Source: Sulfuricurvum sp. (GTDB taxonomy: Bacteria > Campylobacterota > Campylobacteria > Campylobacterales > Sulfurimonadaceae). From it: a stretch of 35,757 nt of DNA. The DNA lies in NCBI GenBank assembly GCA_030696285.1, contig JAUYSQ010000102.1:1-35757 (forward strand), read 5' to 3'. Below the pieces are notes generated by a model. It was not told the DNA's origin, ran no database searches, and saw only the letters and a list, made by a program, of their open reading frames with translations. Positions 16,617 to 20,793 of this stretch are shown here, piece by piece. Position 1 is the first letter of the stretch; each line of letters begins with the position of its first letter. A program made the position numbers and the translations under genes.

Positions 16617-16747
16617 TCTCCACTTTATCTCTGACTATTTGCAAGATAGTAGCACATTTTTAGTGCCGTAAAATCAATCTCAGGGAATTAAGAGGTGGTT
16701 TCGACTAAAATGGTCGACATATTCATTTTGGAAACGGCGCGATCACT

Positions 16748-17413
16748 ATGTATAAAAAACCCATTGAAGCCGATATTGTCTTGGTTGATATTATTGACTT
16801 TTCACGCCTTAGTATGCCACGTCAGCTCGAGCTCATCACCTATCTTTCTCAGAGCTATAAAAAAATGATCCATAAAATGCTCAAAAACTCAGGAATCCCT
16901 TTAGAAAAAATGCTCCAGGGAATCATCCCTACGGGAGATGGTTTCTATTGTATTTTACATCCAAGCCTAAAAGGATTTGGATCGATTTTAGGGCTCTCCT
17001 TTATCCATTTTTCCGATTTTATCTCTCGTGAATACCCTTATTTTCAAGGTATACGCGTCGCGGTACATACAGGGAATATTTATAAATTTGAAGATATTTT
17101 GGGTCATGATAATTTTGTCGGAGATGGGCTTAACGAGTGTGCTCGCTATGTTGAAATCAAAAATCTTATTGTCAGTACCGTCTTTGTTTCCGATACCGCA
17201 TTCGCATCACTACAAGGCTTCTTAGAAAATCATACCGATTTTGCCGAACTGCTACAAAAACGTGAATTCAAACACAGTTCATGCCATACTTTTATAGACA
17301 AACATAAAATAGAACGTCACGGATACCTTATCTGGATGCGTCAAGGGGGAATTATCCCTCCACCCAAACCAGATTGGCTACTTGCACCCAAAAGGAGAAA
17401 TTATGCGCTTTAG
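16748..17413 (+). CDS. Stand-alone class III nucleotidyl cyclase-like domain protein
   Basis: 221 aa; ADIVLVDIIDFSRLS (first metal-Asp region), IIPTGDGFYCIL (second metal-Asp region), IRVAVHTGNIYKF, VGDGLNECARYVEI (N-x3-R transition-state pair). No TM or sensor domain. Confidence 0.75.
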   Translation: MYKKPIEADIVLVDIIDFSRLSMPRQLELITYLSQSYKKMIHKMLKNSGIPLEKMLQGIIPTGDGFYCILHPSLKGFGSILGLSFIHFSDFISREYPYFQGIRVAVHTGNIYKFEDILGHDNFVGDGLNECARYVEIKNLIVSTVFVSDTAFASLQGFLENHTDFAELLQKREFKHSSCHTFIDKHKIERHGYLIWMRQGGIIPPPKPDWLLAPKRRNYAL

Positions 17414-18065
17414 TATTGACGATTACGCAAAAACTTTTAAAATGTCCAAAGAGATGATCCACAATAAAATTCGGACCAAACGGCTCAACTACATTATTGA
17501 AGCAGGAGTCACCTATATTATTGTTCCTCGCAGCTCACTGGATGATGAGTCTAAACGCTCGCTTCTCGAAGCACAAAAAACCAAAGCGGCAACCACTCCA
17601 CCTCCTGCACCTGCTAAAACGAGTATAGGAATGGTCATCTCTCTGTATCAAAAAGAGAATCACCATCTAAAACTAAAAATCAAAGAGCTCGAAGCTAAAA
17701 TCGATTCTCTTATTCATGATAAAGAGCAAATGCTGATCGCCGAACGCTATCGTATCGAAGAGATTTATACGGCCAAAGATGAGCAGCTCAAAAGTATTTT
17801 AGAAGTTTTAAGTACCAAACTCATGCTATCTCAAAATACTACCGTACATGATGTGGTAGCGACACAACCGCAGAACCTCTCTTTTGCATCCAGTGGGGTT
17901 ATCGAGCTTAAGCGCTATCTTAAATTTATCGGAATAGGGAGTGAAGGACGGAAAAACATCCGAAACCGCTTTTCTCAAGCGTACGGAAGCGATATTCGTG
18001 TCATTCAAAAAGAAGGGGAATTTTACGTCGATCTCTCAAAATATGACTATACCGATCTTTTATAA
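17403..18065 (+). CDS. Putative DNA-binding protein: N-terminal HTH-like, central coiled coil, conserved-looking C-terminal domain
   Basis: MRFSIDDYAKTFKMSKEMIHNKIRTKRLNYIIEAGVTYIIVP (excisionase/MerR-like HTH), Pro-rich linker, heptad-rich YQKENHHLKLKIKELEAKIDSLIHDKEQML, C-term ELKRYLKFIGIGSEGRKNIRNRF. ATG at 17403 overlaps the cyclase stop by 11 nt. Confidence 0.7.
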   Translation: MRFSIDDYAKTFKMSKEMIHNKIRTKRLNYIIEAGVTYIIVPRSSLDDESKRSLLEAQKTKAATTPPPAPAKTSIGMVISLYQKENHHLKLKIKELEAKIDSLIHDKEQMLIAERYRIEEIYTAKDEQLKSILEVLSTKLMLSQNTTVHDVVATQPQNLSFASSGVIELKRYLKFIGIGSEGRKNIRNRFSQAYGSDIRVIQKEGEFYVDLSKYDYTDLL

Positions 18066-19347: not shown

Positions 19348-20793
19348 GTGTTTTTTTCGTTTTTCTCGCGTCTATCGCTCTCTAAAGCATCTGTCAACAA
19401 TGAAACGGTTCAATACCCTACAATAAAAAATTCTCAAAAAATATTAGAAGAGGCAACAGAGACTGCAAATGGTATATTTCTACAAAATTTTACCCTCTTC
19501 CATCATGAGAACTCTTTTACGTTGGATATCCTCATTTTTTTACCTCACTATGGCCTCTATTTAGGTGAAAAAATCGCGTGGAAAACGGACGAGCTTAAAA
19601 AAGCTCATCTTGAACGCTCCAATAAGCACGGTAAAAAAAATCCGACGACCCAACTAGGGCTTTCGGAAGCATCAATTCAACACAAACTTGAAGATGTTTT
19701 ATCGTTTAACTTTACACCTATTGAACGTTTTTTTTGGATGGAAAACCTCAGTGAAGCAGATTTTGATCTCCTAGATGATTCTTTCCACAAGCTATTGCCA
19801 AAAAATAGACTTATTTTTAATGACGATACCATCCAAAGTATCCAAAATAAGTTGCATACCCTCGGAACCTATCAAGATGAGCCTTATTCTAAACTCAAAG
19901 TAATAGGTTCACTTAAAGCGCATACTCTCCTTTTACCGACTGATTTTAAACCGTTCGGTGCTTTTCTTTCACAGGAACAGCAACACTTTTTAGATACTCC
20001 CTTTAGTTCGTCTATTATTGCTTTAAACGGTGGATATGGAAGCGGAAAGAGTACGGTCTTAATTCGCAAAGTGATTCAAATGTTGCTTGAGCAACCCCTT
20101 TCCAAGGTGATAATCATTGCCCCAACGCTTTTAAATACTGAAATGTTTCGTGAAGAACTTATTGCCATTACCGAATTTGCTGCTCTTGTCGTTAACTTCT
20201 CAAACCTTCACTTTTTTCCCCTAAGCATCCATCATGAACCGATAGAAACAACAGCCATATTTCATGAATCATCCCTTATCGTGTGCGATGATGCTCATTT
20301 ATTTAAAAGCGGTATTCTGGAGTCGATAATGGCACACCAAGGCAATCGAACTCTTTTATTGAGCAGTACAGTTGCTCTCCATGAATCCAATACCTATACC
20401 TTAAAAAATTCCTACCGCGCTCCTCTTGTTAAGCACGTTCATTTTTCTCACACCAAAGGGGCTCTTTTTACGGTTCTTACAGGGCTTCAAGAGCTTCGAG
20501 AAAAATTCTCAAAGAGTCCTATTCTCATTATTCTTCCTGATGAGCTTTTAATAGATGAGTATAAGCACGCCATAGATGAGCATCTCCATCTTGAGTCTCA
20601 AATACTCAATACTGCCTTTAGCTTACAATACAAAAATTTTGATGCCATAACGCTCTCTACACCGCAGTTTATCAACTCTCTGGAAGCCCCGCATTGTTAT
20701 CTTGTCAATCTCAATCCTGAAGATCCTCTCTATTGGCTTGCGTTAAGCCGAGCATCAGAGAGCGTCACTATAATTTCTGAAGATATTCACTAA
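19348..20793 (+). CDS. Reduced NERD-like plus SF1-helicase-like P-loop ATPase
   Basis: LDILIFLPHYGLYLGEKIAWK (NERD-like), GGYGSGKSTVLIRK (Walker A), SLIVCDDAHL (Walker B), TLKNSYRAP (motif IV-like), LYWLALSRASESVTIIS (motif VI-like). Confidence 0.65.
   Translation: MFFSFFSRLSLSKASVNNETVQYPTIKNSQKILEEATETANGIFLQNFTLFHHENSFTLDILIFLPHYGLYLGEKIAWKTDELKKAHLERSNKHGKKNPTTQLGLSEASIQHKLEDVLSFNFTPIERFFWMENLSEADFDLLDDSFHKLLPKNRLIFNDDTIQSIQNKLHTLGTYQDEPYSKLKVIGSLKAHTLLLPTDFKPFGAFLSQEQQHFLDTPFSSSIIALNGGYGSGKSTVLIRKVIQMLLEQPLSKVIIIAPTLLNTEMFREELIAITEFAALVVNFSNLHFFPLSIHHEPIETTAIFHESSLIVCDDAHLFKSGILESIMAHQGNRTLLLSSTVALHESNTYTLKNSYRAPLVKHVHFSHTKGALFTVLTGLQELREKFSKSPILIILPDELLIDEYKHAIDEHLHLESQILNTAFSLQYKNFDAITLSTPQFINSLEAPHCYLVNLNPEDPLYWLALSRASESVTIISEDIH

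Follow-up and report, generated by a model that had tools for sequence, protein, structure and literature searches.

A probable divergent stand-alone class III-type nucleotidyl cyclase and its HTH/coiled-coil neighbor in Sulfuricurvum and related genera

Organization of the locus

Two overlapping genes in the stretch of Sulfuricurvum DNA analyzed here (35,757 nt, referred to as the window) raise the question of whether a small protein with cyclase motifs is a functional nucleotidyl cyclase and how it relates to the HTH/coiled-coil protein encoded next to it. A first-pass annotation, made from the sequence alone, had read the pair as a minimal class III cyclase tightly coupled to a dedicated effector or DNA-binding partner. 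The features of the locus are listed in Table 1.

Table 1. Coordinates of the features of the cyclase/HTH locus in the window
Feature	Position	Strand	Remarks
Divergent intergenic region, presumed promoter	16617..16747	+	131 bp, from the pyruvate kinase gene (- strand) to the cyclase gene
ATCTCAG-N4-WTWAGA block	16677..16693	+	Upstream of the cyclase gene; conserved in most Sulfuricurvum
Divergent stand-alone class III-type nucleotidyl cyclase gene	16748..17413	+	ATG start, 221 aa
HTH/coiled-coil gene	17403..18065	+	ATG start, 220 aa; 11-nt overlap with the cyclase gene

The second gene does start inside the first, as the first-pass annotation had stated, and the overlap is exactly 11 nt (17403–17413). 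AAAGGAG / AAAGGAGAAATT stands upstream of the ATG at 17403, which is the start common to the relatives; an earlier TTG start at 17382 is also called for this open reading frame. The ATCTCAG-N4-WTWAGA block is a candidate promoter or operator. A regulon search with it returned a single exact copy genome-wide, and matches with one mismatch occurred at the control rate. In the sister genera (L106–L131), a near-palindrome such as AGTTCATTTAAAAGAACT lies 50–150 bp upstream of the cyclase or HTH gene; judged by eye, it is present with or without the cyclase, and it is possibly an operator for the HTH protein. Elsewhere in the window, positions 19348–20793 encode a 481-aa protein with weak, below-cut-off NERD and helicase/AAA matches, which is syntenic across the genus.

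Assignment of the 221-aa protein to the class III cyclases

All the class III core motifs quoted in the first-pass annotation are present in the product of the first gene (VLVDIIDFS, IPTGDGFYCIL, RVAVHTG, and GDGLNECAR). Nevertheless, the single sequence matched nothing in Pfam or NCBIfam and nothing meaningful in the PDB. The gathering score of PF00211 (Guanylate_cyc) was not reached, the score lying below detection, and a PADLOC match to PRTase_III-A (E = 0.034) was dismissed as chance. Since the direct Pfam, NCBIfam, PDB, and PADLOC searches were uninformative, a family profile (A6) was needed, and it was built from 13 diverse cyclase members. The PDB search with A6 returned eight chains at E ≤ 10, all of them class III cyclases, the best being 5oyh (E = 0.0013). 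A profile search also joined to the cyclases a 384-aa protein of genome G096, from another family of the order (E = 2.3e-13), and this bridging relative passes PF00211 with 23.1 bits against a gathering score of 21.9. Thus, the profile check proposed in the first-pass annotation failed for the 221-aa protein itself and succeeded for the profile of its family and for the G096 relative; the PF00211 miss is a limit of the model and not a defining biochemical feature. Comparison with the Campylobacterota class III domains by hhalign gave a short weak match (E = 7e-4, probability 27%).

The structure check, likewise proposed earlier, was also divided in its outcome. The AlphaFold2 model, for which nine similar sequences served as input, reached a mean pLDDT of only 50; the top five Foldseek matches of this low-confidence model were nonetheless class III cyclases, with adenylyl cyclases best (1cjk: probability 1.00, 2.8 Å, 114 columns). 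The predicted fold is at most supportive evidence. Taken with the A6 matches in the PDB and the G096 bridge, the Foldseek result makes a strong case that the 221-aa protein is a divergent class III nucleotidyl cyclase.

The protein resembles the PF00211 domain in its metal-binding Asp pair, the R-x-A-x-H-T-G strand, the G-x-x-x-N-x3-R motif, and, as far as the low-confidence model shows, predicted fold elements. It differs in carrying DKH instead of VKG, in having no base-specifying pair of Lys or Glu with Asp, Thr, or Cys, and in the absence of CHASE2, HAMP, and TM domains. The first-pass annotation had correctly seen no sensor, HAMP, or TM domain, for which 221 aa leave no room, and no Pfam domain was found.

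Distribution and synteny of the cyclase and HTH genes

The cyclase gene was present in 34 of the 37 Sulfuricurvum genomes, and the 33 besides the host carried the cyclase-like ORF at 70–89% identity; the closest relatives, Sulfuricurvum MAGs, have the same locus on their contigs. Pairwise dN/dS values within the genus (0.02–0.11) indicate purifying selection on the gene. The high identity within the genus, the low dN/dS, and the invariant metal-binding and catalytic residues described below argue that this ORF is more than a chance reading frame. Of 37 genomes sampled from the other genera of its taxonomic family, 18 carried the cyclase, and outside the family it was found only in G040, G056, and, distantly, G096. 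No relative was detected on viral contigs and no match on plasmids. In genome G003, which is 99% complete and classed in the genus, the cyclase, FliD, FapA, and both HTH paralogs are all missing; it may have been assigned to the wrong genus or represent a highly diverged lineage. In genome G429, the cyclase relative (L057) is interrupted by an in-frame TAA, possibly reflecting a pseudogene or a sequencing error, and the contig stops short of the HTH gene.

Within the taxonomic family, the cyclase gene is followed by the HTH gene on the same strand in every cyclase-bearing member whose contig reaches far enough, with gaps from -11 to +136 nt, and no cyclase without an adjoining HTH gene was found where the contig permitted the check. 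This layout looks like a real operon. It lies within a larger block, nth (endonuclease III)-(small gene)-cmoA-like-aldolase/pyruvate kinase-[cyc]-HTH-...-HU, which is syntenic throughout the family, so much of the adjacency reflects shared descent. Since this block is conserved and the cyclase phylogeny agrees with the division into genera, the pair has been inherited vertically.

The neighborhood survey suggested by the first-pass annotation therefore gave a mixed answer: the pair is adjacent in all cyclase-bearing family genomes that could be checked, but in 17 genomes of the family the HTH ortholog stands without a cyclase, in most of them in the same slot. The 11-nt overlap is not conserved either, about half of the Sulfuricurvum loci having a gap of +55 to +136 nt instead. 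These observations would fit two independent genes that merely adjoin each other in a conserved chromosomal block. We regard this explanation as rather unlikely, given that the two genes invariably share a strand with only a short distance between them and that the HTH gene is constantly present beside the family's cyclases.

The HTH/coiled-coil protein and its paralog

The architecture proposed in the first-pass annotation for the second protein, an HTH followed by a coiled coil and a separate C-terminal domain, was borne out by prediction. An HTH_17/MerR-excisionase-like winged HTH occupies aa 1–45, and AlphaFold places a long helix or coiled coil at aa 75–145 and, with less certainty, a beta-alpha-beta-beta domain at aa 172–219. 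The N-terminal beta-HTH-wing fold was predicted with pLDDT 85–88 over residues 1–40. In Foldseek, MerR-family proteins were the best matches and BldC was also high, no E-value being significant alone. DUF3972 (PF13118) scored 18.7 bits, below the cut-off of 26.2, and weak matches to it recurred in seven of nine members. Like DUF3972 and the MerR/excisionase winged HTH proteins (HTH_17, BldC), the second protein combines an N-terminal HTH with a coiled coil; it differs in its additional C-terminal domain and in having no MerR ligand domain. Weak mTERF and leucine-zipper matches were dismissed as coiled-coil artefacts.

A paralog of the same architecture is located beside yajQ and HD-GYP genes (L132:3653-5742, contig C36 of G000; L149–L164). 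In most of the loci read from the taxonomic family of Sulfuricurvum, it immediately follows yajQ; within Sulfuricurvum itself, the two are separated by an HD-GYP gene, which overlaps the paralog by about 4 nt. Binding of c-di-GMP has been reported for YajQ proteins elsewhere. With these neighbors, the HTH family recurs beside genes of nucleotide signaling.

Could the HTH protein be a receptor dedicated to the cyclic nucleotide that the cyclase would make? That its gene always follows the cyclase gene in this family is consistent with such a role, as is the host genome, whose three cNMP_binding proteins, one of them of CRP/FNR type, do not show the usual phosphate-binding Arg signature by eye, so that no conventional receptor is evident. 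The N-terminal domain of the HTH protein is also somewhat more conserved in genomes with the cyclase than in those without it (68% vs. 58% identity, p = 0.015, uncorrected for phylogeny). On the other hand, the C-terminal domain, where a ligand would most likely bind, diverges to the same degree whether the cyclase is present or absent, the paralog beside yajQ and HD-GYP genes has the same architecture, and the HTH gene is kept in the 17 cyclase-free genomes. A test for faster evolution of the HTH protein without the cyclase was borderline (HTH/CmoA-like distance ratio 1.62 vs. 1.51, p = 0.05; HTH/Nth ratio, p = 0.20) and was therefore not relied on. We consider a dedicated receptor unlikely.

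The earlier claim of tight coupling to a dedicated effector did not hold. Since the HTH gene occurs without the cyclase, and no HTH homolog was found in the genomes of the three outside cyclase relatives (G040, G056, and G096), the distribution indicates that the HTH protein is not a dedicated partner of the cyclase in the strict sense.

Active-site residues and proposed function

Residues were compared in an alignment of 57 distinct cyclase relatives from four families of the order. The metal-binding Asp pair named as a check in the first-pass annotation (D14 and D64) and the transition-state Asn-x3-Arg pair (N129/R133) were invariant in all 57 sequences, as were T62-G63-D64-G65, H107, G109, D116, N122, G125, and D184-K185-H186. 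K185 of the DKH motif, which corresponds to VKG by position only, is a candidate for the phosphate-binding Lys.

The base pocket is altered. Where the base-specifying Lys would stand (D64-4), the protein has Ile60, as the first-pass annotation had noticed, with Ile in 50 and Val in 7 of the 57 sequences; the Asp/Thr partner position (N129-7), which it had missed, is Asn122 throughout. The canonical purine-specifying pair (Lys/Asp or Thr; Glu/Cys) is therefore absent from all relatives, and the substrate is not readable from the sequence, in agreement with the earlier caution that it could not be assumed. It is this pair that sets the substrate; it sets neither fold nor class.

The loss of both base-specifying residues, the DKH in place of VKG, and the very weak match to known cyclases would also fit a catalytically dead cyclase-fold protein that serves the HTH protein as a scaffold or senses a ligand for it. 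We find this improbable, as the metal-binding Asp pair, the Asn/Arg pair, and the Lys are invariant in 57/57 sequences, which is unexpected in a degenerate enzyme; the 221-aa enzyme is probably active.

The explanation that we favor, and hold to be likely, is that of a soluble, single-domain class III nucleotidyl cyclase with an operon-regulating HTH partner. The enzyme would work as a homodimer and convert an NTP to the corresponding 3',5'-cyclic nucleotide by the usual two-metal mechanism involving D14 and D64, N129/R133, and K185. With Ile/Val60 and Asn122 in the pocket in place of Lys/Asp or Glu/Cys, ATP, GTP, UTP, and CTP would all be possible substrates. The gene would be co-transcribed with that of the winged-HTH/coiled-coil protein, a DNA-binding-like protein whose most probable role is in regulating the operon or functionally associated genes, not that of an obligate cyclic-nucleotide receptor. 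By its distribution, this is a core, vertically inherited module of Sulfuricurvum and related genera and not a mobile defence island.

Comparison with known cyclase systems

The Pycsar pyrimidine cyclases offer a parallel to the changed pocket. PycC proteins are small, stand-alone, single-domain class III cyclases with altered base-pocket residues and a partner gene, and they also have no canonical purine-specifying pair (PMC11224242). That the cyclase is a Pycsar-like enzyme making cUMP or cCMP for anti-phage defence is nonetheless very improbable: one sequence of the family alignment, probably that of the distant G096 relative, gave a weak PycC match (E = 0.02), and the G096 cyclase gene adjoins a ThsB_TIR-domain gene, but the 221-aa protein did not match the PADLOC PycC model, its pocket (L12/I60/T62) differs from that of the solved EaPycC (F100/R142/Q144; PMC11224242), its neighbor is an HTH/coiled-coil protein without the TM, TIR, or cNMP-binding domain of a Pycsar effector, and its gene, unlike the mobile Pycsar genes, is core, syntenic, vertically inherited, and outside any defence island, with no plasmid match or viral-contig relative.

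Cyclases of the same enzyme class and phylum are the CHASE2-type adenylate cyclases of Campylobacterota, described in a signaling census (PMC9239204). Those cyclases are sporadic and laterally moved, whereas the family described here is a small core gene of Sulfuricurvum with vertical inheritance. The census, for which PF00211 and PF01295 served as search models, reported adenylate cyclase from 21% of Campylobacterota species, in every case of the CHASE2 type; its authors inferred that the CRP-like proteins of the other species are probably not regulated by cAMP. Because the 221-aa family escapes PF00211, it was probably overlooked and left uncounted. If the enzyme is active, the conclusion on CRP-like proteins needs revision for these bacteria. 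Within the open-access literature, few papers join these organisms with cyclic AMP. The family is probably a previously unrecognized variant within the class III nucleotidyl cyclases, and, given its altered pocket, the nature of its signal can be put to a direct test.

Possible output of the cyclase module

In the host genome, no other PF00211 or PF01295 cyclase was found, and the 221-aa protein appears as its only candidate class I or III cyclase. As for the output of the module, weak and indirect clues make flagellar assembly the best guess at present. The sister genera mostly show the arrangement cyc-HTH-FapA_N (PF20250), with 1–25 nt between genes, and in most of their cyclase-bearing loci the FapA_N-domain gene comes next after 3–25 nt; FapA-like genes also follow the HTH gene in cyclase-free loci. 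In G040 (L029), the cyclase gene is directly upstream of flgL-like, flaG, and fliD genes, and in G056 (L030) it is the first gene of a cluster that includes one for a UDP-GlcNAc 2-epimerase. None of the five family genomes without FliD carried the cyclase, against 30 of the 47 with FliD (one-sided Fisher test by hand, about 0.01, uncorrected for kinship and representing three lineages at most); most cyclase-free genomes also have FliD. A bolder reading appears to us a long shot: in free-living Campylobacterota, an unrecognized class III clade would make a cyclic nucleotide that is not a purine or is unexpected in some other way, the signal would serve housekeeping and not defence, and a new kind of receptor, possibly the HTH/coiled-coil protein, would read it and control flagellar assembly.

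The locus of the distant relative in G096 is organized differently (L133:3970-5717). In the 384-aa protein, a divergent class III cyclase domain at the N-terminus is followed by a C-terminal half with no assigned domain, and the ThsB_TIR-domain gene (PF08937) is located directly upstream; the two genes are a candidate Pycsar/Thoeris-like two-gene system.
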